A DNA stretch of 36,351 bases from Gemmatimonadaceae bacterium (lineage in GTDB: Bacteria > Gemmatimonadota > Gemmatimonadetes > Gemmatimonadales > Gemmatimonadaceae): NCBI GenBank assembly GCA_025362635.1, contig JANYFO010000148.1, positions 1 through 36,351 on the forward strand. The letters are read 5' to 3'. The notes under the pieces were generated by a model. That model searched no databases. It was not told the DNA's origin and saw only the letters and a list, made by a program, of their open reading frames with translations. The position numbers and the translations under genes are program-made. Of this stretch, positions 1 through 36,351 are shown piece after piece (within the stretch, counting starts at the first letter, position 1; each line of letters starts with the position of its first letter).

Positions 1-468
1 AACATCGCCAAGGATTGTGTCGCGCGGCCAGTGGTTCAGCGTTTCTTCCGCATTCTTGCTGAAACCAAAATCAAAGGCGCGCGTAAAAAATTGTCGCCCG
101 CCATCAATGCGTCGCGCCGACAGCAATTCTTGTGTGCGAATGACGCCAAGCGCTTCGCCGAGTTCGTTTCCAATGAGATTTTGTCCACCGTCCCCACGTG
201 TCAGCGAGAGGTAGGCCGTTTCTACCTTGCGTCCGCGCGCGAGCCACGAGATGAGCTGCGTGTCTTCATCGTCAGGATGCGCGGCAATCAACAACACCCG
301 GCCTGTTGTGCCTAAGCCGTCTAGGACAGAGCCAAGTGCGGCCGCACCACGATCGGACGTTACCGTGCTCTGAGCGAACAGCATCGACGTGTGAACGACG
401 AGCGCCGCAGCAAAAGCTGCGGCGCTGGCACGCGTCCGTCGGGCGATGATAGACTTGCGTCGAATCAC
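1..468 (-). CDS. PIG-L/LmbE-type deacetylase family protein, secreted, 3'-truncated by window edge
   Basis: Minus-strand translation from GTG at 468 reads [33 protein letters not shown] (signal peptide) then [84 protein letters not shown]; the AHPDDE motif is diagnostic of PIG-L deacetylases. Open to the window edge. Confidence 0.85.
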   Translation of the reverse strand, partial: [156 protein letters not shown]

Positions 469-3242
469 TGTCCCACCTTCATCGGTTGCCACTCCTCAGC
501 GAATTCGCCCGTTTCCATGACGACAGACACAATGCGCGCCTGCTCGAGATCATGTGCATCCTTCGCGCCCTCAGCGGGACTCGCGCGCTCCGGACGACCC
601 ACGTAGCGCACGCCAACAGCAGCGCTCGCAGACGCGCGCAGCCGTGGTTGCACATAGGTCCATGCACCTTGGTTGCGCGGCTCTTCCTGTGCCCATAACA
701 CTTGCTCGACTGCCGGATACAACTGCATCACGCGGGCGATCTCGTCGTGCGGCCACGGATATAACTGTTCGATCCGCACCAAGGCGACATGGGCGTTGCG
801 CGATGGCGCCATGGCGAGATCGTAGTACAGCTTCCCGGTGCAGAAGACAATGCGACGCACATCATCGCGATGCTGTGACGCAACGGCATCATCGATCACA
901 GGTTGGAAACTTCCGTCGGACAGGTCGCGCACATGCGACGCGGCCTGCGAGAGTCGCAACAACGACTTGGGTTGCAAGCACATGAGCGGACGTCGATCCC
1001 GACGCATTGCTTGTCGGCGCAGCAGATGGAAATATTGCGCCGGCGTGCTGCAATAGGCGACGGTCATGTTGCCTTCGGCACACAATTGCAGCATGCGTTC
1101 GAGACGCGCGCTGGAATGTTCAGGCCCCTGTCCCTCATATCCGTGTGGCAGCAGGAGCACGACACCAGAGTCGATGCCCCACTTCGCGCGATCAGAAACG
1201 ATAAACTGATCAATAATGGGCTGCGCCACGTTGACGAAGTCGCCGAACTGTGCTTCCCACAACGTGAGGGTGTCGGTCGCGACCGTGCTGAAACCGTATT
1301 CGAAACCGAGCACTGCGGTTTCGCTCAACGCGGAATTGTAGATCTCGAATGCTCCGGTGGCGCCCGATAGATGGGCAAGCGGAGCATACTTTGCGCCCGT
1401 TTCGACGTCGTTGAGCACGGCATGCCGATGCGAGAACGTACCGCGTTCAACGTCTTGTCCGCTCATGCGCACCGAAACGCCGTCGGCGAGGAGTGATCCA
1501 AACGCGAGCGCCTCGGCGTGCCCCCAATCGATACCACCGCTCTCGCCCATCGCTTCGCGTCGACGCTCTAACTGCTTTGCCAATCGCGGATGCGGGGTGA
1601 ACGTACTTGGCCACGAAAGGAGCATGTCGTTGATGAGCAGCAACCGGTCCGCTGCCACGGCGGTAATTACAGCCCTTGCTGGCGTTACGGGTTCGGCGGG
1701 CCACGGCGCGTGCTTCTCGCTCCCCAGCAGCGATGCTTTAAAGCGCGCATGAATGGTGGCGTAGCGATCGGCGACTTGTTTCTCGATCGCGGTCGCCTCG
1801 TCAGCGGCAATCACGCCTTCCGTGACGAGGCGTTGCGCCCATGCTTGTGGCACGGTGGGGTGCGCTTTGATCAGTTCGTAAAGCTTCGGCTGCGTGTACG
1901 TTGGTTCGTCGCCTTCATTGTGTCCGTGACGACGATATCCCACGAGATCGATGAGTACATCTTTCTTAAACTTTGCACGGTATGCGCACGCCAACCGAGC
2001 GGCGGTGATGCATGCTTGGGCATCGTCCGCGTTGACATGAAAGATCGGGATTTCGAATCCCTTTGCGAGGTCAGACGAATAGTGCGTGGAGCGTGCGTCG
2101 TTCGGGTCGGTGGTGAAGCCCACCTGATTATTCACGATGATGTGAATCGTCCCACCAGTGCGAAACGCATTCAGGCGCGAGATGTTTAGTGTTTCCGCGA
2201 CGATTCCTTCGCCAGGAAATGCCGCATCGCCGTGAATCGCGACCGGCACCACTGATGATTCGTCGCGGGCTCCCGGACTACCCGGCACCCGTTGCAAGGC
2301 GCGCGCAACGCCTTCGACAACAGGGTTCACCACCTCGAGATGCGATGGGTTTGGCACGAGTCGCAACAGCACTTCGCGGCCGTCGACTTCGCGCGATCCT
2401 GCGTACCCCAAGTGGTACTTCACGTCGCCGGTCGCGTTTTCGTCGGCGTGATCGTGACGTCCTTCAAATTCGGCAAACAGCGCTTCGAACGGTTTGCCCA
2501 TCACGTTCGTGAGCACGTTCAATCGTCCACGATGCGCCATACCGATGACAATTTCGCGCGCACCGGCCCGACCAGATTCATCGATGATCGTATCAAGGAG
2601 CGGGATGAGCGTGTCGGTGCCTTCAACGGAGAAGCGCTTGTAGCCGACGTACGCGCGTCCGATGAAGCGTTCGAGTCCATCCACCTCGTTGAGCCGATGC
2701 AGCACCGCTTTTTTCTCGTCGTTCGTCAAATCGCGCGTGATGACTCCGTCGCGAAATGTCGTGCGGAACCATTCGCGTTCGGCGTCCGTCTGCAAATGCC
2801 ACACTTCGTATCCAATGCGATTCGAATACACGGCGCGTTTACGACGAATCACATCCGCGGCGGTCGCGTAGCGCGCGTCGTCCAATGCTTCACCGGGAAT
2901 GATCTCGAGATCTGCATCGGTCAGCCCGTAGTACGCCGGTGTAATATCGTCCGCGCCTGGCGGCGGTGATCCGAGCGGATCGAGCTGCACGGCGAGGTGT
3001 CCGTAATTCCGGATGGCCTGTTGGAGCGATGCCGCCGAGGCCACTTTTTTCATCAGCGCGATGTCGACGCCTGCTGGCGCATGCCCAGAGGGCACTGGCG
3101 TGCCCCCCGCGAACAAGGACTCCGCGATGCGGAAATACTGACGCCACGTCTCATCCACACTCGCGGGATCAAGACGGAAACGTTCGAATTGTTCGGCGAT
3201 GACGCCGTCGTTAAAAACGCTGGAGATAGCTGACATGCTCAT
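465..3242 (-). CDS. sucA: 2-oxoglutarate dehydrogenase E1 component
   Basis: 925 aa ORF; typical SucA motifs (IGMAHRGRLNVLTNVMGKP, HGDAAFPGEGIVAETLN, VNNQVGFTT, YRRHGHNEGDEPTYTQP, C-terminal RIEQLYPWP, WAQEEPRNQGAW). Confidence 0.96.
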   Translation of the reverse strand: MSMSAISSVFNDGVIAEQFERFRLDPASVDETWRQYFRIAESLFAGGTPVPSGHAPAGVDIALMKKVASAASLQQAIRNYGHLAVQLDPLGSPPPGADDITPAYYGLTDADLEIIPGEALDDARYATAADVIRRKRAVYSNRIGYEVWHLQTDAEREWFRTTFRDGVITRDLTNDEKKAVLHRLNEVDGLERFIGRAYVGYKRFSVEGTDTLIPLLDTIIDESGRAGAREIVIGMAHRGRLNVLTNVMGKPFEALFAEFEGRHDHADENATGDVKYHLGYAGSREVDGREVLLRLVPNPSHLEVVNPVVEGVARALQRVPGSPGARDESSVVPVAIHGDAAFPGEGIVAETLNISRLNAFRTGGTIHIIVNNQVGFTTDPNDARSTHYSSDLAKGFEIPIFHVNADDAQACITAARLACAYRAKFKKDVLIDLVGYRRHGHNEGDEPTYTQPKLYELIKAHPTVPQAWAQRLVTEGVIAADEATAIEKQVADRYATIHARFKASLLGSEKHAPWPAEPVTPARAVITAVAADRLLLINDMLLSWPSTFTPHPRLAKQLERRREAMGESGGIDWGHAEALAFGSLLADGVSVRMSGQDVERGTFSHRHAVLNDVETGAKYAPLAHLSGATGAFEIYNSALSETAVLGFEYGFSTVATDTLTLWEAQFGDFVNVAQPIIDQFIVSDRAKWGIDSGVVLLLPHGYEGQGPEHSSARLERMLQLCAEGNMTVAYCSTPAQYFHLLRRQAMRRDRRPLMCLQPKSLLRLSQAASHVRDLSDGSFQPVIDDAVASQHRDDVRRIVFCTGKLYYDLAMAPSRNAHVALVRIEQLYPWPHDEIARVMQLYPAVEQVLWAQEEPRNQGAWTYVQPRLRASASAAVGVRYVGRPERASPAEGAKDAHDLEQARIVSVVMETGEFAEEWQPMKVGQ

Positions 3243-3841: not shown

Positions 3842-5971
3842 TTAAAACATCACCTCAGCGGTGACAAACACACTGCGTGCCGGCAGTACGAAGTAACGCA
3901 CCTTTCCCGACGACGACACTGAGCCGCTGCCGTATTTTTGCGTGTCGCCAAGGTTGGCACCGCGCACAACCACGGCGTAGCGCGCTACCGAAAAGCGCGC
4001 CGATGCATCAACAGTGAAGAAATCCGGTAGCACTCGGTCGCCACTACTCGTGTTATCAAGAAACGCCTTCGATTGGTAGCGCGCTTCCGTGCTCAGCGCG
4101 ACGTGTCGCGTTACCGCAAACTCCGCGCGTTGCGTTGTAACGAATCGCGGTGTGAGCAGTGGCTCTACGTTTAGACGCAGCACCGGCGTGCCACGCGACG
4201 AGTCTGTGAACTGCTTGATACGATTCATGCTCCACGCGGCGTTAGCACTGAGCACCAGTCGTGGCACCCCACGCCACAGACCATCAAATTCAAGGCCCCG
4301 TCGATAGCTGGAGCCCACGTTCCGACGTAGGATGGCGCCCGAGGCGGTCGGCGCGCCGATGCGCTCGATATCATTGCGAAAATCCATGTTGTAAACGTTT
4401 GCGTGCAACTCAAACGCTGCCTGTATCACATTGAGACCAAGTTCCGCATCGTGTACCGTCTCGGGCTTCACGCGCGTAAAATCTCCATACGCCGACACGT
4501 TGTCCGCATTCAAGTCATCGTCGCCCGCCAACAGATCGCTGCGCGCTGGCTCGCGCGTGGTCGCCCCGAACGACGCAAACGCCGACACGCCGTTGGCGAT
4601 CTGCATCGTCACGCCAACTTTGGGATTGAAAAACGTCCAATCGATACTGCGTTCGCTTATACCCGCATTTTTGTCAGGGACGTAGCGGAATCTCGCCTGC
4701 CGCGCTTGCACATCGACAAACCAGCGCGCGCGCCCTGCCTTGTACGACGCCTTCGCGAAAATGTTTGCGTCGTCTTTGTGTCCAGTATTGTCATACAACG
4801 TAAGATCAGGCTTGAGATATCCGCGATGCGCGCGCTGATACAAATTCGCGTTCACCCCCGCATTGAGTTGCAGGTCACCCTCCTCATGCGTGATCACGCT
4901 GATCACACCGTACCACGTGTGCGCCAAGTTAAACCGATACCGGTCGGGCAATTCGAAATAGTCGTAGTTTCCACTCGCGGAATTGCGATATACCGTCGTA
5001 TTCAACGACGTCGCTGAGCTCACGATGCGCGTGTACGCGAGCGCCACCATTTGTTGACCGAATTGGTCTAACTCATCGGTCGCTAGCGGGTTGAAACGGC
5101 GATTTTGCTGCAATTGTGCTGATGTCGCGCCGGTGTACGACAACGTGTCGGCGAGCAGACCCACTAATGCTGTCAGCTTGATGATGTCGTGCGATCCAAA
5201 CCACCCGGCGCTGAGGAATGCGGTGCGTCCTTGCACTCCACTGTGGTCGCGATATCCATTCGTCCGAAGCGCGCTGACTCGTCCGTACACCGCGAGACCG
5301 TTCGCCAATAGGCCTGAGCCGAAACCCGCGCTGACGCGCTGCGCGCCAAACGATCCAAGCTGCACTTGCACATCGCCGCTTGGTGCAGGCTGCGCGATCG
5401 GCATTGTTTCAAAATTTATTGATCCCGCATACGATGCCGTGCCCGCCGTACTCGTGCCCACCCCGCGCTGCACTTGTACCGATTGCACGTTAGACATCAA
5501 ATCGGCAAAGTTGGCGAAGTACAGCACTTGGTCTTCCGGATCGTTCAACGGGACGCCGTCGATCGTAATGTTGATACGCGTCTGGTCAATACCGCGTAAT
5601 CGCAGATGGCTGTACCCCCAGTTCGTACCGGTTTCCGTATCAGCCGTTAGCGACGGCGACGCCCCTTGGAGCAAGAGCGGGACTTCCTGTCCGAATTGAC
5701 GCTGCGCGATTGTTGCGCGACCAATCGTTTTTTGTGCGATTGGCGCAGCGTCCGACGCACGAATGGCGTTCACCATCACGCGTTCGATTCGCCGCGCCGA
5801 ATCGGCGACCGCATGGCGAGTTGTGTCCGTGGTGGATTGCGCGCTGAGCGGTGCGACGCCTGAACAGAGGGCGACACACGCGGCGGCGAATATGTTGAAG
5901 ACTACGAGATAGGATGCGGCGCTTTCGCGCATCCGCGGATGCGCGCTGCGCATCCGAGTGGTGCTGTACAT
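3842..5971 (-). CDS. TonB-dependent outer-membrane receptor, putative thiamine(-compound) receptor
   Basis: 709 aa with signal peptide; plug domain LRLRGIDQTRINITIDGVPLNDPEDQ...VQVQRGVGTSTAGTASYAGSINFET; C-terminal beta-barrel ending in aromatic (VFVTAEVMF). Thiamine specificity is inferred from the upstream TPP riboswitch. Confidence 0.92.
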   Translation of the reverse strand: MYSTTRMRSAHPRMRESAASYLVVFNIFAAACVALCSGVAPLSAQSTTDTTRHAVADSARRIERVMVNAIRASDAAPIAQKTIGRATIAQRQFGQEVPLLLQGASPSLTADTETGTNWGYSHLRLRGIDQTRINITIDGVPLNDPEDQVLYFANFADLMSNVQSVQVQRGVGTSTAGTASYAGSINFETMPIAQPAPSGDVQVQLGSFGAQRVSAGFGSGLLANGLAVYGRVSALRTNGYRDHSGVQGRTAFLSAGWFGSHDIIKLTALVGLLADTLSYTGATSAQLQQNRRFNPLATDELDQFGQQMVALAYTRIVSSATSLNTTVYRNSASGNYDYFELPDRYRFNLAHTWYGVISVITHEEGDLQLNAGVNANLYQRAHRGYLKPDLTLYDNTGHKDDANIFAKASYKAGRARWFVDVQARQARFRYVPDKNAGISERSIDWTFFNPKVGVTMQIANGVSAFASFGATTREPARSDLLAGDDDLNADNVSAYGDFTRVKPETVHDAELGLNVIQAAFELHANVYNMDFRNDIERIGAPTASGAILRRNVGSSYRRGLEFDGLWRGVPRLVLSANAAWSMNRIKQFTDSSRGTPVLRLNVEPLLTPRFVTTQRAEFAVTRHVALSTEARYQSKAFLDNTSSGDRVLPDFFTVDASARFSVARYAVVVRGANLGDTQKYGSGSVSSSGKVRYFVLPARSVFVTAEVMF

Positions 5972-5976
5972 CGTTG

Positions 5977-6062
5977 GACTCCCTACGCCGGTACGAGCCG
6001 GATCAGGTTCTACGGGACTGTCTCAGCCAACGCTCACTAGCGGCGCGGCACCCCGGTCATGT
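5977..6062 (-). promoter_or_regulatory. TPP riboswitch (THI element)
   Basis: Minus strand reads ACCGGGGTGCCGCGCCGCTAGTGAGCGTTGGCTGAGACAGTCCCGTAGAACCTGATCCGGCTCGTACCGGCGTAGGGAGTCC, containing the hallmark GGGGTGCC, GGCTGAGA, GAACCTGATCCGG and GTACCGGCGTAGGGA blocks in order, immediately 5' of the TonB receptor ATG. Confidence 0.96.
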
Positions 6063-6108
6063 GCATCAACCATAATTGGTGAACACGCCCGTGTATAGCT
6101 TTCCGTGC

Positions 6109-6720
6109 ATGACCAACTTTTGCGACTGGCTCATCACGCACGGCAGCTCCTGCGCGGAACTGTTTGGCTTTGTCTGCGGCGTATTAAGCGTGTATCTCGC
6201 GACGCGCGAGAACATCTGGAATTGGCCGTTCGGGGTGCTCAACGCGGGCTTTTACATCGTGGTGTTTGGCCGTGCGGGTTTGTATTCCGACACCGGCTTG
6301 CAGGTCGTGTATTTCGTACTCTCGTTTTACGGGTGGTGGCATTGGTTGTACGGCGGCAAAGCGCGTGCGCCCGTATTAGTAGCGCGCACATCGCTTCGCC
6401 TCGCCGCCGTGCTGCTGTTGATCGCGCTTGGCGCGTGGTTCGTGCTGTTCACCATCACATCCCGCATCCCCGGCGCGAAATTGCCGCTGCTTGATGCGGC
6501 GCTTGTGGCGCTAAGCCTTGTGGCGCAGTGGATGATGACCCGGAAATTATTAGAGAACTGGGCGTTATGGGCGGCGCTCGATACGGTATACGTCGGTCTT
6601 TTTATCGTTCGCGGCTTACGCTTGACGGCCGTGTTGTACGCTGTATTTTTGCTCCTCGCCATCTTTGGTCACTTCGAATGGAAACGATCACTCGCCCGCA
6701 CGTCACCCGCATCGTCTTGA
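6109..6720 (+). CDS. PnuC-family vitamin/nucleoside transporter (PnuC or PnuT type)
   Basis: ORF 6076..6720; multi-TM protein with ELFGFVCGVLSVYLATRENIWNWPFGVLNAGFYIVVFGRAGLYSDTGLQVVYFVLSFYGWWHWLYGG, characteristic of PnuC. ATG at 6109 preferred over the upstream TTG at 6076. Confidence 0.9.
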   Translation: MTNFCDWLITHGSSCAELFGFVCGVLSVYLATRENIWNWPFGVLNAGFYIVVFGRAGLYSDTGLQVVYFVLSFYGWWHWLYGGKARAPVLVARTSLRLAAVLLLIALGAWFVLFTITSRIPGAKLPLLDAALVALSLVAQWMMTRKLLENWALWAALDTVYVGLFIVRGLRLTAVLYAVFLLLAIFGHFEWKRSLARTSPASS

Positions 6721-7229
6721 CAGGTTCGGAGTCGGTTGGCAAGTCGATATTGGCAACGCAGCTGGCCGCGCACTACGGCGTCGCGTTCGTTCCGGAGTTC
6801 GTGCGCCAGTACGCGCTTTGCAAAGGGCTTCCGCTTGATGTCCACGACAATGAGCCCATTGCCCGAGGGCAGATGGCGCTCGAAGACGCGTACATCGCGC
6901 GCGCCACGTCCTTGCTACTGCATGACACCGACTTGGTAAGCACCGTGGTCTATGCTCATCACTATTTTGGGCAATGTCCACCCTTTATCGAAGATGCTGC
7001 ATTCGCTCGTCGCGCAGACATGTATTTGTTACTCGACATTGATGTTCCGTGGATGCCAGACGCGGTGCGTGATCGCGGTGATCGTCGCGACGAAGTGCAA
7101 CAACTGTTTGTCGCGACACTCGCCCGCGTGCACGCCGCCGTGACACCCATTTCCGGAACCTGGGCGGCGCGGTTTGCGCTCGCCACGGCGACGATTGATG
7201 CCGTCCGCTTGCGGAGCGATCAGCGTTGA
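6678..7229 (+). CDS. NadR-like AAA ATPase/kinase (ribosylnicotinamide-kinase-like)
   Basis: Translation METITRPHVTRIVLTGSESVGKSILATQLAAHYGVAFVPEFVRQYA...; P-loop GSESVGKS and VPEFVRQY typical of the NadR kinase domain. Overlaps the pnuC-like gene by 43 bp. Confidence 0.8.
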   Translation: METITRPHVTRIVLTGSESVGKSILATQLAAHYGVAFVPEFVRQYALCKGLPLDVHDNEPIARGQMALEDAYIARATSLLLHDTDLVSTVVYAHHYFGQCPPFIEDAAFARRADMYLLLDIDVPWMPDAVRDRGDRRDEVQQLFVATLARVHAAVTPISGTWAARFALATATIDAVRLRSDQR

Positions 7230-7273
7230 GCGAAACTCGCCGTGGCAGGCTTCCCTTCTTAGAGGATTTTCTC

Positions 7274-7711
7274 GTGTCTAGCAATAATCAAAACTTCGGC
7301 AATCACGCGCGATTCGTACCGGGCTATCACTTTGTCACGGTGCTCCTCGCAATTGTTTATCTCGTGTGGGCCATCTATCGCGCGCTAACAATACGCGACG
7401 CCGCCACGCACTTCGAACTCGTGGGTGCGCTCGCACTCGTTGGGACAGCGTTGTACGCGCGTGTCTTTGCCCTGCAAGCGCAGAATCGCGTCATTCGCCT
7501 TGAAGAACAGATGCGACTCGCACGCATTCTGCCGACGGATTTACAAGCAAGTATTTCGTCGATCCATCCCGCACACCTCATCGCTATCCGTTTCGCGTCC
7601 GACGCAGAAGCATCGGAACTCGTACGTCAGGTGATCGCGAATCCGGCGATGACAGGTAAAGAGATCAAATCACAGATCAAGGCTTGGCGCGCCGACCACT
7701 ATCGCGTGTAG
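7274..7711 (+). CDS. DUF6526-like membrane protein
   Basis: NQNFGNHARFVPGYHFVTVLLAIVYLVWAIYRAL...ALYARVFALQAQNRVIRLEEQMRLARILPTDL resembles DUF6526. GTG start at 7274 with AGAGGA 7 nt upstream preferred over TTG at 7226. Confidence 0.7.
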   Translation: MSSNNQNFGNHARFVPGYHFVTVLLAIVYLVWAIYRALTIRDAATHFELVGALALVGTALYARVFALQAQNRVIRLEEQMRLARILPTDLQASISSIHPAHLIAIRFASDAEASELVRQVIANPAMTGKEIKSQIKAWRADHYRV

Positions 7712-24819: not shown

Positions 24820-25572
24820 ATGATAGACAATTCTAGGACGGGTGATCCAGCGCCGCCGAGCCACGAACCAGCACACGCGGAGCGCATTGCGCACCAACGT
24901 CAGGAGGCACTCGGACTGTTTGCGCGGAAAATGACGCATGATTTGAATAACTTTGCGACTGTGGTGCGCACGTACAGTGAATTGCTGCAAGCCGAGTTGC
25001 CTCGCGGAAGTAGTGTGCACGCCGATGTGACAGAAATTCATCGTGCGGCAGATGCAATGGTGGTGTACTTGCAACGCGTGGTACACTTTACCCGCGCAAC
25101 GAATGCGCGTGCCGAGGTTATCGATGCGGACGCAGCGGTACACGAGGCATTGCAGGCGCTTGCGCAATCCGCGCGCGACAGCAACGAATTGCCATTGGTG
25201 CTCGTCGGCACGGCGGGCGTGCGGATAAACGTCGACCGGGCGTGGTTAACCGACGCGATCACTGCGCTCGTCTGTAATGCGCGCGAAGCGTCCCCGTTAC
25301 ACCAAACGGTGACCGTGACGCTGACGGTACGCGCAGCTGCGTCTATCGCGCCGCTGTTCGTCCTGACGGTTGCTGATCTCGGCGCAGGGTTTGACCTCTC
25401 GGTGTCAGCGAACGCCGAAGATCCGTTTGTGACAACGAAGCGCGGCGAACGTGACGCGGGATTTGGCCTCGCCAACGCGTCAGCATATGCACGGGCCGCT
25501 GGCGGTCATATCGAGCACGAGCGTGTTACCGGCGAAACGCGTGTATCGCTGGTGTTACCGTGCGTCGACTAA
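24820..25572 (+). CDS. Soluble orphan sensor histidine kinase-like protein
   Basis: FARKMTHDLNNFATVVRTYSELLQAEL (DHp H-box), N-box ALVCNAREASP, G1 VADLGAGFDL, G2 ERDAGFGLANASAYARAAGGHIE; no TM or sensor domain apparent. Confidence 0.8.
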   Translation: MIDNSRTGDPAPPSHEPAHAERIAHQRQEALGLFARKMTHDLNNFATVVRTYSELLQAELPRGSSVHADVTEIHRAADAMVVYLQRVVHFTRATNARAEVIDADAAVHEALQALAQSARDSNELPLVLVGTAGVRINVDRAWLTDAITALVCNAREASPLHQTVTVTLTVRAAASIAPLFVLTVADLGAGFDLSVSANAEDPFVTTKRGERDAGFGLANASAYARAAGGHIEHERVTGETRVSLVLPCVD

Positions 25573-26601
25573 CGTAGCGCGGAGTAGCGCGTCGGCAATA
25601 TTCGGAAGCGCCAACACTTCAACTGCCGCATTAAGCAAAACCGCTTCACGAGGCATTCCATACACAACGGAAGTGGCCTCGTCTTGCGCGACAGTAAATG
25701 CACCGGCCTCGCGCATGGCTAACATGCCTTTGGCACCATCCACGCCCATCCCGGTGAGAAGCGCGGCGACGGCATTGCGTCCGCCGCTCCGCGCGACACT
25801 TTGAAATAGCACATCGACCGCAGGCCGTTGGTGATGAACAAGTGGACCATCCTTGACGCGCACCACCCACCGCGCACCGCTGGCTTGTACAATAAGATGT
25901 TTGCCTCCAGGGGCGATCAGCGCGAGACCGGGAATTACAGAATCGCCGTCGCACGCCTCTTGCACGCGCATCGCACAGACGCCGTCGAGCCGCTTGGCAA
26001 ACGACGCCGTGAAGTGTTCCGGCATGTGCTGCACAATCACAGTGCCGGGCGCGTCCACCGGGAACTGACGCAATACGTGTTCGATTGCCTGCGTCCCGCC
26101 GGTGGATGCGCCGAGCGCGATGATCTTGTTCGTTGCAACAATACCGGCCATCGCTCCGAACGGAGCCATCGCGATGACGGTCGACGACTCGATGCGTCGC
26201 GTAACGCGCGCGAAGGATGCCGCGCGCACCGCACGGACAAGTGCATCGCCAATATCTCTCGTAGCAAGTGACGATCCGGGCTTCGCGATCACGTCCACGG
26301 CGCCAAGCGCGAGCGCGCGCAATGCCGTTTCGCTGTTCTGCGGGGTCAGCGAGCTTACGACAATCACGGGAAGCGGAAAGTGTTGCATGAGTTTGGCCAG
26401 AAATGACAGCCCATCCATGCGCGGCATCTCGATGTCGAGCGTGATGACATCGGGACGCAATTCCACGATGCGTTCGCGTGCGTCGTACGGATCGGTGGCA
26501 GTGCCAACCACTTCAATGTCCGCATGTTTCGAAAGTGCTTCGGCTAGCATACGCCGCACCAGCGCAGAATCGTCGACAATCAACACGCGTACGGCCGCCA
26601 T
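25555..26601 (-). CDS. cheB: Chemotaxis response regulator protein-glutamate methylesterase CheB
   Basis: Receiver MAAVRVLIVDDSALVRRMLAEALSKH...DVITLDIEMPRMDGLSFL; methylesterase ALGASTGGTQAIEHVLRQFPVDAPGTVIVQHMPEHFT...LTGMGVDGAKGMLAMREAG. Confidence 0.96.
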   Translation of the reverse strand: MAAVRVLIVDDSALVRRMLAEALSKHADIEVVGTATDPYDARERIVELRPDVITLDIEMPRMDGLSFLAKLMQHFPLPVIVVSSLTPQNSETALRALALGAVDVIAKPGSSLATRDIGDALVRAVRAASFARVTRRIESSTVIAMAPFGAMAGIVATNKIIALGASTGGTQAIEHVLRQFPVDAPGTVIVQHMPEHFTASFAKRLDGVCAMRVQEACDGDSVIPGLALIAPGGKHLIVQASGARWVVRVKDGPLVHHQRPAVDVLFQSVARSGGRNAVAALLTGMGVDGAKGMLAMREAGAFTVAQDEATSVVYGMPREAVLLNAAVEVLALPNIADALLRATLVDAR

Positions 26602-26602
26602 A

Positions 26603-27109
26603 CTAAAGCCTCCGCTCCACACCGTTCACGCACACCGTGACGTCGCCATTCGTCACGTCAATCCACACGTTGCGTGCGATTTGCGAGCCGCCCAGATCGC
26701 TGGCGTGCACCTCGACGCCGTTACGCAGCAACAGCGAGGCAAACGCGCGCGCATTGTGTAATCCGATTTTGAAACGATCAGCGTGCATTGAAACGCCCGC
26801 ATGCGCACCGCCCGCGACAACAAGGCGCATCCGTGATTTCTGCGCGCCCAACGCGTAGCATGCTTTGAACAGCATCGGCACACCGCTGTCGACGAACATG
26901 GCGGGGCGTACACGCTGTTGTGGTTTGTCAATCGATCCCGTCGGGAGCATCACGTGCAACAAACCAGCCACCTGCACGATGGGATCGTACACCACGACAC
27001 CGAGACAACTGCCTAGCGCATACGTAATCAATCGTTCGCCAGCGGTGGCCGACACTTTGCAATCGGCAATGCCAACGACGCGTTCGACGTACCGTGCGAG
27101 CGCGGACAT
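26603..27109 (-). CDS. cheD: Chemoreceptor glutamine deamidase CheD
   Basis: LITYALGSCLGVVVYDPIVQVAGLLHVMLP...MRLVVAGGAHAG: catalytic Cys/His motifs of CheD. Confidence 0.93.
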   Translation of the reverse strand: MSALARYVERVVGIADCKVSATAGERLITYALGSCLGVVVYDPIVQVAGLLHVMLPTGSIDKPQQRVRPAMFVDSGVPMLFKACYALGAQKSRMRLVVAGGAHAGVSMHADRFKIGLHNARAFASLLLRNGVEVHASDLGGSQIARNVWIDVTNGDVTVCVNGVERRL

Positions 27110-27110
27110 T

Positions 27111-27959
27111 CTACTTGACGTACACCGCAGGTTGCACGTAGCGAAAGCGATGTGCGAGCCCTGTCAAACTTTCGCTGTGACCAACAAACAAATGTCCTCC
27201 AGGTCGCAGCATACCCCAAAACCGTTCAACCAGCCGTTGCTGCGTACCCTTGTCAAAATAAATCATCACATTGCGGCAAAAAATAGCATCGAATGGTCCC
27301 TGCATCGGCCATGTGTCCATCAGGTTGAGCTTTGCGAAATGCACGAGGCGACGAAGCGTCGGCATGGCTTCATACACCGGACGCCCGTGCGCGTCCTCGC
27401 GCTGCGTCCAGTAGCGCTGCACCCAGGGGCGCGGAACGTCGATCATCGTGTCTACAGCGTACGCGGCGGATTTAGCGGTCGATAATACGCGGTGACTGAT
27501 ATCCGTTGCAAGCACACGCACATCGCGCGTTGCAATGTGTGGATACGTCTCATTTAAAAGCATCGCCAACGTATACGCTTCCTCGCCCGTGGAACATCCC
27601 GCGCTCCACACTCGCACGGATCCCGTCAGGCTGGGCAGCACATAAGTGCGCAGATAGTCAAAGTGCGCGACCTCGCGCAGAAAACTCGTCTTATTCGTGG
27701 TAAGTACGTCAATCATTTCCGCGAACTCGCGACGGTCCGGCTCCGACTCGACACGATGCAAATACGTCTCGAAATCCGTAAGACCGAGCGCACGCAATCG
27801 GCGCGTCAATCTTGCCCGAACCAACCCTTCTTTCCCTTCGCGCATGCGAATGCCAGCATGATCGTACAGCCAGCGCACAATTTGTGTGAATTGCTTGGCG
27901 GTCAGCTCGCACTCGGCAAATACTACATCCGGGGCCTGTGGCCGTGATATCGACGTCAT
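27111..27959 (-). CDS. cheR: Chemotaxis protein methyltransferase CheR
   Basis: LTAKQFTQIVRWLYDHAGIRMREGKEGLVRARLTRRLRALG; VRVWSAGCSTGEEAYTLAMLL; FDAIFCRNVMIYFDKGTQQRLVERFWGMLRPGGHLFVGHSESL. Confidence 0.95.
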   Translation of the reverse strand: MTSISRPQAPDVVFAECELTAKQFTQIVRWLYDHAGIRMREGKEGLVRARLTRRLRALGLTDFETYLHRVESEPDRREFAEMIDVLTTNKTSFLREVAHFDYLRTYVLPSLTGSVRVWSAGCSTGEEAYTLAMLLNETYPHIATRDVRVLATDISHRVLSTAKSAAYAVDTMIDVPRPWVQRYWTQREDAHGRPVYEAMPTLRRLVHFAKLNLMDTWPMQGPFDAIFCRNVMIYFDKGTQQRLVERFWGMLRPGGHLFVGHSESLTGLAHRFRYVQPAVYVK

Positions 27960-27972
27960 CGCGTCCGCGCGC

Positions 27973-28467
27973 TTAGTACGCGTGTGCCGGAACTGCCTCA
28001 AGTATGTCGAGCTCATCGGCGGCGAGTACTCGATCGATGTCGAGTAGCAATCGCACACGACCGCCTGCCTTCCCGATACCGAGCAGGAACTCCGTGCGAA
28101 TTCCCGCACCGAAGCTTGGTGCGTCCTCCACATCACCCTCGGTGATGGTCACCACCTCACTGACACGGTCGACCACAATGCCCGTTTGCACGCCCTGCAT
28201 TTGCACCACAATGATGCAGCCATCGATTACGCCGTCCTGTGTCATCCCAAATTTTGCACGGAGGTCAGTGATGGGAATGACTTTCCCACGCAAATTGATC
28301 ACACCACGCACGAAATCTGGCATCCGTGGCACGCGCGTAATTGGTTGCATGCCAATAATTTCGCTCACCTTCAGGATTTCTACACCGTACTCCTCATTCG
28401 CGAGATAGAACGTAAGATATTTGCCAACGCGCGTGTTACCGCTCGGTCCATCCTGCTGCATATGCAT
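27973..28467 (-). CDS. cheW: Chemotaxis coupling protein CheW
   Basis: KYLTFYLANEEYGVEILKVSEIIGMQPITRVPRMPDFVRGVINLRGKVIPITDLRAKFGM. Confidence 0.95.
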   Translation of the reverse strand: MHMQQDGPSGNTRVGKYLTFYLANEEYGVEILKVSEIIGMQPITRVPRMPDFVRGVINLRGKVIPITDLRAKFGMTQDGVIDGCIIVVQMQGVQTGIVVDRVSEVVTITEGDVEDAPSFGAGIRTEFLLGIGKAGGRVRLLLDIDRVLAADELDILEAVPAHAY

Positions 28468-28504
28468 GACTCACTCAGTGGTGAAGAGGTCCATCTTGTG
28501 TTGC

Positions 28505-30532
28505 TTATGCCGCAGCGTCGCGGTGATGATTTCGAACTTGCCGAAGCGACGTCATCTCACTGCTGCGCTCGAGCGTAATGATCTCGTTCACGTCGAGGAT
28601 CAATCCAACGCGCCCGTCTCCAAGAATTGCCCCGCCACTTACACCGGGTACCTTGCCGAGGGCGGCACCGAGTGTCTTGGCGACCACCTGCTGCTGACCA
28701 AGCAGTTCATCAACCAATAAGGCCGATCGACGTTCGCCTTCGCCAACAATCATCAGCAAACCATCGAGCGGACTTTCGATCGCATCGACCACATTGAAGA
28801 GACGATGCAAGCGGATGATTGGCATCAAGGCGCCGCGCAGCAGCACGACTTCACCTTTGCCGGCTACCGTTGAAAGCATAGAACGCTCTGGACGAAAACT
28901 CATGTGAATGTTCGTGAGCGGAACGACAAAACGCTCGGCACCGACGCGCACTAACATGCCATCCGTCACCGCGAGCGTGAGTGGCAGACGAATGGAAAAC
29001 GTGGTGCCGCTACCGGTCGATGATCGAATCTCCACGCGGCCGCGGATGGACTCAAGATTTCGTCGTACGACATCCATGCCCACGCCGCGTCCGGACAGAT
29101 CGGTGACCGCATCTGCAGTTGAAAATCCGGGTGCAAAAATCAACGCGAATACATCATTGTCGGACATACCCTTGTCAGATTCAATCAGTCCTTTCTCAAT
29201 TGCTTTGCGCACCAACTTCTCGCGATGTAGTCCGCGACCGTCATCGACGAGCTCCACGACCACATTGCCGGAGGCATAAAACGCTGACAGTCGCACCACG
29301 CCTTCGCGCGCTTTCCCTACACGTTCGCGCTCGTCAGGGCTCTCAATGCCGTGGTCCACGGCATTTCGTACCATGTGCACTAACGGATCACCGAGCAGAT
29401 CCGCCAACGTACGATCAATTTCTACATCATTCCCGTCAGTAATAAACTGCACCTCCTTGCCCGCTTTTACCGATGTATCGCGCACCACGCGTGTCAGCTT
29501 CTGGAACGTTGTTCGCAGCGGCACCATACGCATCGACATGCTCAACGCCTGTAACTCACGCACAATTTTCCCAGCGTGCGTCACTTTGCGCTGCAATGCA
29601 TGCCGAGTCTTAGTGTCGAATAATTCGTCACCGGCGATCATCGATTGCGCAATCACGAGCTCACCGACCATATCGATTAAGCGATCGAGACGATCCGTGC
29701 GCACACGAATGGTTGCGTCACTCGCTGCGGCAACGCGTTCGGCCTTTGCAGCAACGGGGACGGTGGCGTGCAGCTTCGATGGCACGGTTGCTGACGCGTC
29801 AAAGTGCGCGAGTGCGTACACCAGGTCGTGATATCCGCAGGGAACGGCCAACGCGCCATCGCCAGCCAGCGCGACTTCCACGGCAGCGAGCAATTCCTTC
29901 AGCATGTCGACGGAGCGAAGCGAAAGGTCCGCGCACGATCGCGTGTACGCGATTTCCTTTTCTCGCACTCGACTGAGTAGCGATTCCACGTTGTGCGCAA
30001 ACGCTGTCAAGCGCGCCAATCCGAGAAATGCCGACGTGCCTTTCACCGTGTGAAATGCACGAAATACCGTGTTGACGGCCTCCACATCGCTCGGATCGTC
30101 TTCGAGGCGCAATAGTGCCGCCTCGCTGCCCGCGAGGTACTCGTGGCTTTCGATGAGGAAGTCCGGGAGCAGCTCGCGATCCGCGTCCGCTGGGAGTTGT
30201 TCGGAATTTTCATCGGACGGTGTGTCGCGCGTGGGCGCTACCGCACGAACCGCAACGTGATGCGCCGGCGTGGATCCGGCATTAACGCGCAGGGCTGCCT
30301 CGATGGCATCGTTCACTTCGGTAAACGCCGCAGTGGCGTCTGTGGCTGCTCCGTTCACGAGCATACCGAGGACGCGCGCGGCGCGGGCCACGAACGGCTG
30401 CGCCGGTAGCGATACGCCATTCTCGAAAGCGAGATCGGCGAGCGCATCACGCAGGCGTGCGAGATCGACGGTATCCGTCGCGTCCAACTGCAGGAGAAGT
30501 GTGGCCGCATCATCGAGTGTTAGGAGTACCAT
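28505..30532 (-). CDS. cheA: Chemotaxis histidine kinase CheA
   Basis: Hpt FRAFHTVKGTSAFLGLARLTAFAHNVESLL; HATPase DPLVHMVRNAVDHGIESPDER...FAPGFSTADAVTDLSGRGVGMDVVRRN; C-terminal CheW-like domain. ATG at 30532 preferred (ORF to 30583). Confidence 0.95.
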   Translation of the reverse strand: MVLLTLDDAATLLLQLDATDTVDLARLRDALADLAFENGVSLPAQPFVARAARVLGMLVNGAATDATAAFTEVNDAIEAALRVNAGSTPAHHVAVRAVAPTRDTPSDENSEQLPADADRELLPDFLIESHEYLAGSEAALLRLEDDPSDVEAVNTVFRAFHTVKGTSAFLGLARLTAFAHNVESLLSRVREKEIAYTRSCADLSLRSVDMLKELLAAVEVALAGDGALAVPCGYHDLVYALAHFDASATVPSKLHATVPVAAKAERVAAASDATIRVRTDRLDRLIDMVGELVIAQSMIAGDELFDTKTRHALQRKVTHAGKIVRELQALSMSMRMVPLRTTFQKLTRVVRDTSVKAGKEVQFITDGNDVEIDRTLADLLGDPLVHMVRNAVDHGIESPDERERVGKAREGVVRLSAFYASGNVVVELVDDGRGLHREKLVRKAIEKGLIESDKGMSDNDVFALIFAPGFSTADAVTDLSGRGVGMDVVRRNLESIRGRVEIRSSTGSGTTFSIRLPLTLAVTDGMLVRVGAERFVVPLTNIHMSFRPERSMLSTVAGKGEVVLLRGALMPIIRLHRLFNVVDAIESPLDGLLMIVGEGERRSALLVDELLGQQQVVAKTLGAALGKVPGVSGGAILGDGRVGLILDVNEIITLERSSEMTSLRQVRNHHRDAAA

Positions 30533-30595
30533 GCGGTAAGTATCGGGAGCTCGCTTCCACAGGTTGAGACTCTGCGTCAACAATCGTGGACATGC

Positions 30596-30627
30596 GAACG
30601 GCTCGCGTCCGAAGACACGAGCCGTTC
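30596..30627 (-). terminator. Strong intercistronic hairpin with C(UUCG)G loop downstream of cheZ
   Basis: Minus strand GAACGGCTCGTGTC-TTCG-GACGCGAGCCGTTC: 14 bp stem with a single G.U wobble and a UUCG tetraloop; no strong U tract follows. Confidence 0.7.
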
Positions 30628-30650
30628 ACGCCGCGGGCTGCCGGGGGGGC

Positions 30651-31331
30651 CTACACCGCGGGCAATCGAATTCCGGTAAAGATTTCGTCCGCAAGCGCCT
30701 GACGACCTTCGATGTTCTTCGTACTTGCATTGGGATCATAGATCATTTCGTCCGGAGCACTATACCGTTTACCGCGATACTGTTCGTCAAAGCTGGTGTC
30801 GAACAAGCGCGCAATATCCGCTAGTCGATCTTCCATTTCGACCAAAACCGCCGAGGCATGATTGAGTTGCTGCGTGGTAATGTCTTGGAATTGCAACGCG
30901 CTCATCATGAGAAACAGTTCGTCACGCAAGGTCCCGCGCAGTGCACTGGCTTTGGCGCGATTGGGTACGGCCTGCGCGTCATTGGCATCGAGGGCGTCCA
31001 CGATCTGCGCGGCACGATCGCACGCGTCGAGAATATTGGTCGCTGCATCCTCTGTCGCCGTCGTGACTTCGCGGAGTTTGTCTTGCGTAACTTGAAATTT
31101 TTGTAACGCGGAGCTCTGGAGTGCTGTGCGCGTGTCACGTAAGCGTGATAGCACTTCAAGAATCTGCGCATTTGCACGCTGCAGAATGGCTGGCAGCTCG
31201 GCGACGCCGGCCTCGCAAAGCATCGGTTCGCCGCGTAGGTCGTGAATCTCTTGATCCACCAATCGCAACGCGGCTTCCGACTCATACAGCACTTCGTGCG
31301 CTCGATGACTAATCATCGCGGGCGTCGTCAC
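30651..31331 (-). CDS. cheZ: Protein phosphatase CheZ
   Basis: DELFLMMSALQFQDITTQQLNHASAVLVEMEDRL matches the CheZ QFQDxTxQ catalytic region; sits between cheY and cheA. Start 31331 or 31316. Confidence 0.85.
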   Translation of the reverse strand: MTTPAMISHRAHEVLYESEAALRLVDQEIHDLRGEPMLCEAGVAELPAILQRANAQILEVLSRLRDTRTALQSSALQKFQVTQDKLREVTTATEDAATNILDACDRAAQIVDALDANDAQAVPNRAKASALRGTLRDELFLMMSALQFQDITTQQLNHASAVLVEMEDRLADIARLFDTSFDEQYRGKRYSAPDEMIYDPNASTKNIEGRQALADEIFTGIRLPAV

Positions 31332-31699
31332 GCGGCCGCAGCCAGAAGAAGCGCGTCAATCTTCTCCTTCAGCACTTGCGGCGTAAACGGCTTTACAATG
31401 TAGTTGTTCACGCCCGCCTCCATCGCGGTGAGAATGTCTTCCTTTACTGAGCGCGCGGTTACCATCAGGATCGGAACGTGTTGCCCATCGGATCGTGCAC
31501 GCAATGCTTTCGTAAATTCTGTGCCGCTCATGTTGGGCATATTCCAGTCGGTGATGACGAACTGCACCGAGCTGTCGAACTTGACGAGGGCGTCCTGTCC
31601 GTCACTCGCTTCGATCGTGTCATTGAATCCGATACGCTGCAGCGAATTGACCACGATACGCCGCATGGTCGCGGAGTCGTCAACTACGAGGAACTTCAT
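31328..31699 (-). CDS. cheY: Chemotaxis response regulator CheY
   Basis: MKFLVVDDSATMRRIVVNSLQRIGFNDTIEASDGQDALVKF...FVITDWNMPNMSGTEFTKALRARSDGQHVPILMVTARSVKEDILTAMEAGVNNYIVKPFTPQVLKEKI. Confidence 0.96.
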   Translation of the reverse strand: MKFLVVDDSATMRRIVVNSLQRIGFNDTIEASDGQDALVKFDSSVQFVITDWNMPNMSGTEFTKALRARSDGQHVPILMVTARSVKEDILTAMEAGVNNYIVKPFTPQVLKEKIDALLLAAAA

Positions 31700-31743
31700 T
31701 CTACCAGTCTCCTAAATGCGCTGGTCAGTGTGGACAGTCGAAA

Positions 31744-32055
31744 CTACAGATCGCCGCGCGTGAGAATGCGTCGCGCCACCTGATCAACCACGTCGAGCGT
31801 GTTGTACGCGCCGGTTAGTACTTTGGTGCGCAGCTCGGCGACACGCTCGGGATCGAACGTGCTCTTCGCGTCGGCCTCGATCCGACCAACCAGCGAACGC
31901 CCGGAATCCGAAATTGTGACGGAATCCGATTTTGTCGGAGCCGCCGTGTTGGCCTGCGCTGCTGCCTCGTTCGGACGACCTGTGGCTGGACTGCCCGCGG
32001 TCGTCGGTCGATCAGGGCGCAACGGGTCAAACATGCTTCCGTTAATTCGCATCAA
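31744..32055 (-). CDS. flgM: Anti-sigma-28 factor FlgM
   Basis: SDSVTISDSGRSLVGRIEADAKSTFDPERVAELRTKVLTGAYNTLDVVDQVARRIL, typical FlgM C-terminal pattern, within flagellar cluster. Confidence 0.85.
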   Translation of the reverse strand: MMRINGSMFDPLRPDRPTTAGSPATGRPNEAAAQANTAAPTKSDSVTISDSGRSLVGRIEADAKSTFDPERVAELRTKVLTGAYNTLDVVDQVARRILTRGDL

Positions 32056-32076
32056 GTTTCCTCCTCATCTGTGTGA

Positions 32077-32104
32077 CTATCGGCACATCTGCCCAATTAC
32101 TTGA
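32077..32104 (-). promoter_or_regulatory. Putative sigma-28 (FliA) promoter of flgM
   Basis: Minus strand TCAAGTAA-N12-GCCGATAG versus FliA consensus TAAAGTTT-N11-GCCGATAA: 7/8 match in -10 and 5/8 in -35, located between the upstream ORF stop (32128) and flgM start. Confidence 0.5.
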
Positions 32105-32127
32105 GCCGGGTAATCTTTCGAGCGCTG

Positions 32128-32376
32128 CTAATACCGAACGTCGAGCTGTCGATGGCCCGGTTCCGCCAGAGGCTCCGGCGTCGACATGTACACTTGATGC
32201 CCTGGCCGTTGCAATTGACCACCCTCCTGCGCGAGCACGGTGTGCTTGGCATCCAAGCGCAATCGTTCCACCAACGCATCGTCCGCTGAGAGCAGCGGTT
32301 CGCGCTCATCAGCGTCGAGCTCTGCGAGTTTGTCGCGCAGCAATCCGTCAAATGACGCGGCACCGACCACGATCAT
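32128..32376 (-). CDS. Small protein of unknown function in flagellar cluster
   Basis: 82 aa ORF MIVVGAASFDGLLRDKLAELDADEREPLLSADDALVERLRLDAKHTVLAQEGGQLQRPGHQVYMSTPEPLAEPGHRQLDVRY; start overlaps upstream stop (ATGA), suggesting translational coupling. Confidence 0.55.
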   Translation of the reverse strand: MIVVGAASFDGLLRDKLAELDADEREPLLSADDALVERLRLDAKHTVLAQEGGQLQRPGHQVYMSTPEPLAEPGHRQLDVRY

Positions 32377-32870
32377 CGCACGCGATCCACTTGATGCGGT
32401 AAGGAAAAGGCGGCATAGCCCATCCCCGCACTGCCCGCGCGTTGTACCGAATCCAACTCTGCACGGAGTTCAGCCGCGCGATCGGCGACCCGCTTGGCCA
32501 ACGCCATCGTGGTCCGATGTGTCGAGGATAGCACGGCGCAGACGTCGCTCACTAACGCGTCGGCATCATCCACCAAGCGCTCAGTGGCTGCAAACAACAA
32601 ACTGTCCGCCGTTGGACGTTCCAAGCGCAAGGTCAACAACTGCTCGGATAAGTCAGTCAACATCTGTTCACGCTGCTCCAGCAGGCTAAACAGATGATCG
32701 TCATCGACGCCGACAGCCGCACCGGCCACGAGCGCCAGCGCGTCAGCGTTCGTACAGATTCGGATCGCTTCATGCGCGGCCTTCGCACGCGAGAGCGACC
32801 AAGATTTCTGCGTGGTTCGAGGTACGAGATTCGGATTCACAAACGCCTCACGCCGACTTTTTGACGGCAC
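32373..32870 (-). CDS. FlgN/FliT-like flagellar export chaperone candidate
   Basis: Helical protein with LFSLLEQREQMLTDLSEQLLTLRLERP, position directly after fliS; overlaps fliS by 23 bp. Family assignment by position and style, not a diagnostic motif. Confidence 0.5.
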   Translation of the reverse strand: MPSKSRREAFVNPNLVPRTTQKSWSLSRAKAAHEAIRICTNADALALVAGAAVGVDDDHLFSLLEQREQMLTDLSEQLLTLRLERPTADSLLFAATERLVDDADALVSDVCAVLSSTHRTTMALAKRVADRAAELRAELDSVQRAGSAGMGYAAFSLPHQVDRVR

Positions 32871-33243
32871 TCAGCTGTTCTGCAGCGCCGGCAAATCCAT
32901 CCCGCAAAGAGGTTGCGATGGTCACCAGCTTACGCATCACGCGCAGATCGCCTCGTTGACCGACGTCGACCAGTTCGTACAACATGTACTGATACAGGTC
33001 CGCAAGCTGATTGGAGAGCGATTGGCTCTGCTCAAAATCAAGCGACGCCAGCAGCTCACCTACAAGGTCACGCGCGCGACGGAGTGACGTGACGCGGAGT
33101 TCGAGATTAGTGCGCTCCATCGCAATACGTGCGCGTTCCAGATTGACGACCAGTTGTTCAAAAACGATGACGACCAGACGCTCGCGCGAGGCGGAAAATA
33201 CTTCCATTTCGCGATAGCTGGACGACGGTGTCGCGTAAGACAT
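32848..33243 (-). CDS. fliS: Flagellar export chaperone FliS
   Basis: MSYATPSSSYREMEVFSASRERLVVIVFEQLVVNLERARIAMERTNLELRVTSLRRARDLVGELLASLDFEQSQSLSNQLADLYQYMLYELVDVGQRGDLRVMRKLVTIATSLRDGF. Confidence 0.92.
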   Translation of the reverse strand: MSYATPSSSYREMEVFSASRERLVVIVFEQLVVNLERARIAMERTNLELRVTSLRRARDLVGELLASLDFEQSQSLSNQLADLYQYMLYELVDVGQRGDLRVMRKLVTIATSLRDGFAGAAEQLSAVKKSA

Positions 33244-33305
33244 CGAATACCGGATTGAAGTCGAAGCCGAGAAATTGCGTGCGTCACGATGGAGTATCGG
33301 CATGG

Positions 33306-35405: not shown

Positions 35406-35431
35406 GACCTAAATCTCCGCAAAGGGCAGGA

Positions 35432-35464
35432 CCTCGGAGCCGGCACATTACGCCGACTCCGAGG
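35432..35464 (-). terminator. Strong hairpin between fliC and fliD
   Basis: Minus strand CCTCGGAGTCGGC-GTAATGT-GCCGGCTCCGAGG: 13 bp stem (one G.U wobble) 28 nt after the fliC stop. Confidence 0.75.
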
Positions 35465-35492
35465 GGTTAGTCATCCGCCAGCCTGATCGGGT

Positions 35493-36260
35493 TTATCGCA
35501 GGAGCTGCAGCACGCCTTGGCTGCCTTGATTCGCCTGTGACAACATCGCTTCGGCTGCCTGCTTGAGAATGTTGCTCTTGGTAAAGTTGGCCATTTCTTC
35601 CGCCATGTCGACGTCGCGAATCACAGACTCTGCGGCGCGGACGTTCACGATTGCGGACTTCAAGTTCTGCACGGTGTAATCGAGCACCGACTGACCTGCG
35701 CCAATGTTGGCGAGCGTCGTGTTGACCGCGTCAAGCGCCGTATCAGCATTTGCCAACGTTGAGGTACCACTTAACGTCGTCAGCGTTAACGCGGAATTCA
35801 CCGTCACCGTACCGCTTGTCGCTGAGTCGCGCACTTGGAACAAGAGCGACGCGAACACGCTTGCCCCCTGAAAGTCTGACGCCGCGAGAATACGGGTCGA
35901 CTCTGTCTGCAGCGTGGCGATTTCTGTGCTGAGGGTCGCGGTGACGGTGCTGTTGTTACCCGTCGACGTCGCCTGCGTGATCAGTTCCTTCTGACGCTCG
36001 ACGATCTTTTGAATCGTCGTCGCAGCACTTTCCGCGATCTGCAACATCGCGCTGCCCTGCTCGGCATTATTCGACGCGGCGGTTAACGAACGGCTCTGCG
36101 TACGAAGCTTGTTTGCAATAGAAAGACCGGCGGCGTCATCTGCCGCGCGACTGATACGCAAACCTGAGCTCAACTTCGCCATGCTGCTGTTCGTCGCCAT
36201 TTCGTTGACGAAGATATTCTTTGAAGCCGTCAGTGCACCGATGTTCGTGTTAATACGCAT
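35493..36260 (-). CDS. fliC: Flagellin (short)
   Basis: MRINTNIGALTASKNIFVNEMATNSSMAKLSSGLRISRAADDAAGLSIANKLRTQSRSL...; C-terminus AESVIRDVDMAEEMANFTKSNILKQAAEAMLSQANQGSQGVLQLLR; start ATG at 36260 with GGAGG upstream. Confidence 0.96.
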   Translation of the reverse strand: MRINTNIGALTASKNIFVNEMATNSSMAKLSSGLRISRAADDAAGLSIANKLRTQSRSLTAASNNAEQGSAMLQIAESAATTIQKIVERQKELITQATSTGNNSTVTATLSTEIATLQTESTRILAASDFQGASVFASLLFQVRDSATSGTVTVNSALTLTTLSGTSTLANADTALDAVNTTLANIGAGQSVLDYTVQNLKSAIVNVRAAESVIRDVDMAEEMANFTKSNILKQAAEAMLSQANQGSQGVLQLLR

Positions 36261-36351
36261 GAGACTATCCTCCGTGATGTTGAATTGAGGCATCCGTGCC
36301 TCGCCCGGACTCGATGATCGAATCGCGGTCAGATCTCAGTGTCGTCGCGAC

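Follow-up and report, generated by a model that had tools for sequence, protein, structure and literature searches.

The locus described here raises two questions: why an aptamer of the TPP class should stand before the gene for an outer-membrane receptor, and what such a receptor would bring into the cell. The window, that is, the whole stretch of 36,351 nucleotides that was analysed, is contig C454 of a 3.73-Mb Gemmatimonas draft genome that is 90% complete. The sequence-only reading had put a THI element on the minus strand right before the receptor ATG and proposed a search with RF00059. That search bears the element out: when the whole window was scanned against Rfam 15 with cmscan, RF00059 (TPP) gave the sole match above cut-off, exceeding its gathering score of 54.3 bits over the full model (positions 1-105; Table 1), and the motifs, coordinates and strand of the earlier reading all proved correct. 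The match is unique in the draft genome. The 3' side of the aptamer reaches the receptor ATG on the same strand, and because this arrangement is kept 5' of orthologous receptors across the genus, a chance occurrence of the aptamer is excluded. We expect the aptamer to bind TPP. On the plus strand, a permease gene begins 43 bp past the aptamer edge and is followed by a kinase gene.

Table 1. Features of the locus and of related loci, with positions in the window where they apply.
Feature	Position or locus	Strand	Evidence or remark
TPP riboswitch aptamer (RF00059)	5963..6065	-	60.3 bits, E 1.4e-9, full-length model
AGGGAG ribosome-binding site, within conserved 3' part of aptamer (GUAGGGA)	5979..5984	-	sequence reading
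TonB-dependent outer-membrane receptor, 709 aa, predicted thiamine receptor	3842..5971	-	PF07715 plug, PF00593 barrel
Covarying GC-rich hairpin in receptor frame, nt +16 to +36, 9 bp, 3-nt loop	5936..5956	-	covariation
Possible -10 element of receptor promoter (AATTAT)	6072..6077	-	position only, by analogy with CTAATTA(G) in relatives
Divergent PnuC-family permease, predicted thiamine permease (PnuT-like)	6109..6720	+	PF04973 E 1.6e-52
NadR-type P-loop kinase (AAA_28), 183 aa, single domain, predicted thiamine kinase	6678..7229	+	PF13521 E 1e-28
Second TPP riboswitch before thiM	L076, L077, L078, L079, L080		minority of Gemmatimonas genomes

The receptor reading frame starts with the ATG at 5971-5969, 7 nt behind AGGGAG. 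In 28 of 28 genus members this sequence is followed at 6-9 nt by a start codon (ATG or GTG) and overlaps the conserved aptamer motif GUAGGGA. In the RF00059 structure, the UAGG of the motif forms the 3' side of a helix, so that folding stabilised by the ligand should directly mask the ribosome-binding site. Because that site sits within the aptamer, control of the receptor is likely to be translational, and the element would act as a translational OFF switch. The same layout of the ribosome-binding site is found in several thiC leaders of relatives and in the leader of a pnuT gene from a Gemmatimonadota draft (L115). Acidobacteriota leaders usually have the start codon farther downstream of the aptamer, and their expression platform is therefore probably different. 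An intrinsic terminator was considered as the platform and rejected, none being found near the aptamer. Minimum free energy folding of the window leader gave no clean two-state switch and was uninformative on alternative states.

A second structured element lies inside the coding sequence. Receptor frames of Gemmatimonas contain, at about nt +16 to +36, a hairpin with a 7-9 bp stem and a 3-nt loop, the sequence of which varies between species with the pairing maintained: among 13 distinct arm pairs, 7.6 of 8 positions are paired. The arm-swap control gave 4.26 +/- 0.72 pairs against the 7.6 observed, and other offsets in the genes (1490 of them) gave 4.21 +/- 0.42. Under a synonymous-codon null, in which codons were redrawn by each gene's own codon usage, the value was 6.19 +/- 0.24, with a maximum of 6.85 in 2000 draws. 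We reject a mere effect of GC-rich codons, since this null accounts for much of the pairing (6.2 of 8) but not for all of it; the pairing comes largely from the protein sequence and GC-rich codons, yet an excess is present. The hairpin lies at about what we take to be the end of the footprint of an initiating 30S ribosome.

What the receptor might import can be approached through the thiamine genes of the organism and its relatives. ThiC and ThiE had no match in the window's genome, an absence that, in a draft 90% complete, rests partly on the relatives, and nothing above cut-off was found there for ThiG. ThiL is present above its curated cut-off (contig C370). The catalytic domain of TPK (PF04263) had no match in any of the 61 genomes that we compared, namely the window's own and 60 relatives from its genus, family and order; control genomes were positive. 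From its gene content, the organism is thus predicted to be auxotrophic for thiamine while retaining the step from TMP to TPP. With receptors called at an E-value of at most 1e-20, the receptor occurs in 33 of the 35 genomes without ThiC and in none of the 26 with it, although most of these genomes belong to one clade and the counts are not independent events. None of the genomes assembled into a single contig (G020, G028 and G029) has ThiC. Of the 33 genomes with the receptor, 32 have the riboswitch 5' of it; in the other, G002, a contig end cuts the receptor. Among the ThiC-bearing genomes, 25 of 26 have the riboswitch on the strand of the thiC match, just 5' of it and no more than about 450 nt away. 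Given the mutual exclusion of receptor and ThiC and the position of the riboswitch in the 61 genomes, the riboswitch tracks predicted thiamine supply, preceding thiC in putative prototrophs and the receptor gene in putative auxotrophs.

Two ThiC-less genomes lack the receptor. One (G011, a genus member, 91% complete) has neither riboswitch nor receptor, and no part of the module was found in it; the other (G059) has ThiG and ThiE, and is therefore probably a gap in the draft. Two congeners from another family of the order differ from each other, G055 having ThiC and no module, and G056 the receptor, PnuC and the kinase but no ThiC; this pair looks like an independent case of a switch of target. 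The thiC riboswitches of other Gemmatimonadota share with ours the aptamer class and, in most of the inspected leaders, GUAGGGAG directly before the start codon; they differ in that they control biosynthesis, in host genomes without the receptor. A second TPP riboswitch stands before thiM in five genus members, with thiE and thiD after it in four. These loci serve precursor salvage in those five genomes; none was found in the window's genome.

Published work on the order and genus bears on the predicted auxotrophy. A survey found thiamine synthesis to be far rarer in Gemmatimonadales than in a sister order (PMC10469786). Added vitamins are reportedly not needed by G. groenlandica, in a medium that contained yeast extract and peptone (PMC7844134), and for G. 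phototrophica vitamins helped growth and were not indispensable, on agar made from a rich medium (PMC9862903). Neither growth report settles the matter.

We consider it highly probable that the locus is a module for thiamine salvage under the control of a TPP riboswitch, in a Gemmatimonas predicted to be auxotrophic for thiamine. At low TPP the aptamer would be empty, AGGGAG in its 3' strand free and the receptor translated; at high TPP the bound aptamer would hold AGGGAG in the P4/P1 region and turn translation off. The receptor, energised by TonB, would carry thiamine across the outer membrane and the Pnu permease would carry it through the inner one, after which the NadR-type kinase would convert thiamine to thiamine monophosphate, also trapping it, and ThiL would convert the monophosphate to TPP. 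An alternative that we regard as unlikely is that the receptor imports not free thiamine but a precursor (HMP or thiazole) or a phosphorylated form (TMP or TPP). The thiM loci of the five genus members, four of them with thiE and thiD, speak for precursors, and imported TMP would be directly usable by ThiL. However, ThiE is missing from the window's genome and from most members of the genus, which could therefore not join HMP and thiazole, unless through YjbQ, and import of TMP or TPP would make the co-inherited kinase superfluous. Free thiamine is the substrate that we would assign to the receptor.

The assignment of the permease and kinase to thiamine needs more argument, because curated models name them a nicotinamide riboside (NR) transporter (PnuC) and a NadR-like protein, and their best solved homologues are PnuC (4qtn) and NadR. 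The permease belongs to the Pnu family by PF04973 and scores 88 bits against a PnuC equivalog cut-off of 42 bits. We read both model names as statements about family rather than substrate. The kinase is a P-loop kinase related in sequence to the ribosylnicotinamide kinase domain of NadR (1lw7, 8x7f), but it has no adenylyltransferase domain, matches the model of bifunctional NadR in the kinase part only (86.6 bits against an equivalog cut-off of 341.15) and occurs in a thiamine gene context. PnuC is present in 32 of the 35 ThiC-less genomes versus 2 of the 26 ThiC-bearing ones, and the kinase likewise in 32 of 35, versus one weak partial match among the 26.

Wider context comes from a scan of genome contigs with the kinase alignment (A1), which yielded 80 loci. 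In Acidobacteriota, one strand carries in order a TPP riboswitch (identified with Rfam), a homologue of the receptor, PnuT and the kinase, and in the Gemmatimonadota draft L115 a TPP riboswitch lies directly 5' of a pnuT-kinase pair. At five gammaproteobacterial loci the kinase gene is followed by a TPP riboswitch, with no PnuC match nearby, and at one of them (L167) thiB, thiP and thiQ, all above cut-offs, follow the riboswitch. Since TPK was not found, ThiL is kept and the kinase is linked to several kinds of thiamine genes, it is probably the missing thiamine kinase, and we would expect it to act on thiamine. The broader proposal, which we hold to be reasonably likely, is that NadR-type kinases of this kind form a hitherto unassigned family of thiamine kinases, which makes TMP from thiamine for ThiL to convert to TPP, replaces TPK in thiamine-salvaging Gemmatimonadota and Acidobacteriota, and adjoins thiBPQ in some Gammaproteobacteria.

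The model names and solved homologues would also suit a pair devoted to NR salvage that stands beside the receptor by accident, the receptor alone being related to thiamine. We think this quite improbable: the pair tracks the loss of ThiC, NadA, a marker of de novo NAD synthesis, is found in nearly all genus members, and the kinase is a single domain without the NMN adenylyltransferase part. The pair also lies within TPP-riboswitch operons in Acidobacteriota and behind a TPP riboswitch in L115, and the gammaproteobacterial kinase adjoins a TPP riboswitch and thiBPQ where PnuC has no match. Genomic context thus favours thiamine over NR for the permease. Two records among the loci, one titled Candidatus Kuenenia with a Gemmatimonas-like module (L103) and one titled Methylococcaceae with an Acidobacteriota-like module (L151), are probably mislabelled or mixed drafts.

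The receptor itself has plug and barrel domains above cut-off (PF07715, E 8.8e-11; PF00593, E 1.7e-23). A structure model based on an alignment of 25 sequences across Gemmatimonadota and Acidobacteriota (A3) reached a pTM of 0.73, with a many-stranded barrel that is fairly confident and a plug region of low confidence. PqqU and YncD (9c4o, 6v81) are among its nearest solved structures by profile search; in the comparison of folds PqqU comes out first, closely followed by siderophore receptors. Like the predicted receptor, these are TonB-dependent importers of an organic cofactor, but their ligand is PQQ and identity over the structural alignment is 17-18%; the likeness fits import of a small cofactor and does not itself assign the ligand. 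That the receptor takes up a ligand unrelated to thiamine, for example heme or a siderophore, with the riboswitch as a control on cofactor status, is very improbable, as the matches to heme/hemoglobin receptor models that suggest it are far under cut-off (54 against 324 bits), the closest solved structure is that of a cofactor importer, and thiamine accords both with the phylogenetic pattern, in which receptor and ThiC exclude each other, and with the conserved operon that includes PnuT. A TPP aptamer 5' of the gene and linkage to PnuT, two features of OMthi-type receptors, are both present. The prediction of thiamine rather than iron-siderophore uptake, made from the sequence alone, is accordingly supported by the lack of matches to ThiC, ThiG, ThiE and TPK in the genome, by the mutual exclusion of receptor and ThiC in the 61 genomes, and by the co-encoded Pnu permease and kinase, which in Acidobacteriota share a single TPP-riboswitch operon with the receptor.

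Receptors under TPP control are known, as that reading also held, from Bacteroidetes and some Proteobacteria. In Bacteroides, a TPP riboswitch lies 5' of OMthi (BT2390), the system includes pnuT-tnr3, and deletion strains have growth phenotypes (PMC5613172, where Tnr3 is called a thiamine pyrophosphorylase); in Variovorax, a thiamine operon under TPP regulation includes a gene that resembles those of TonB-dependent receptors (PMC10409787); and PMC2771747 discusses putative TonB transporters of thiamin with a link to PnuT. Our locus resembles that of Bacteroides in having a TPP riboswitch before a TonB-dependent receptor gene, a permease of the Pnu family and, adjoining the permease gene, a gene for a phosphorylating enzyme. 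Whereas Bacteroides has Tnr3 and biosynthesis genes, here a NadR-type kinase stands beside the permease, ThiL is kept and neither TPK nor biosynthesis genes were found; moreover, the permease and kinase genes are divergent and not behind the riboswitch. In Variovorax, too, a TPP riboswitch precedes an operon that includes a TonB-dependent receptor with a predicted role in thiamine import, but that operon is mainly biosynthetic, while the riboswitch of our locus belongs to the receptor gene of a predicted auxotroph. Our locus differs from these systems in that its host is predicted to be auxotrophic, that it occurs in other phyla, that the permease and kinase genes are divergent, and that a NadR-type kinase stands where Bacteroides has Tnr3. 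The literature that we searched, which is no proof of absence, yielded no description of this kinase in thiamine metabolism, and the Gemmatimonadota/Acidobacteriota form of the receptor together with the kinase appears undescribed there.

These results would extend TPP-riboswitch-controlled uptake of thiamine across the outer membrane to Gemmatimonadota and Acidobacteriota, both of them frequent in soil and fresh water; they also predict that a whole cultured genus relies on external thiamine. The riboswitch offers a clean natural contrast: thiC follows it in makers of thiamine, the receptor gene in takers. For bacteria without TPK and ThiE, the NadR-type kinase is a testable candidate for the missing step from thiamine to TPP, and genes annotated as PnuC and NadR may be thiamine genes.

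A consensus scan found no sigma-70 consensus promoter. The interval from the aptamer to the divergent pnuC start, 6066-6108 in the window, contains a near-palindrome, CTAATTA(G), in 24 of 28 genus genomes, with all 8 bases in 19; it is a possible -10 element shared by both directions. The window's genome and G008 lack it, and the former has instead two separate AT-rich hexamers, TATAGC at 6094-6099 (+) and AATTAT at 6077-6072 (-). Elsewhere in the window, the kinase gene is directly followed by a gene for a DUF6526 protein (7226-7711, +). Downstream of the receptor gene, on the same strand and after a gap of about 600 bp, lies a gene for the E1 component of 2-oxoglutarate dehydrogenase, a TPP-dependent enzyme (465-3242, -), and the region 25555-36293 (-) holds chemotaxis and flagellar genes (CheB, CheD, CheR, CheA-like, FliS, FliD and flagellin).
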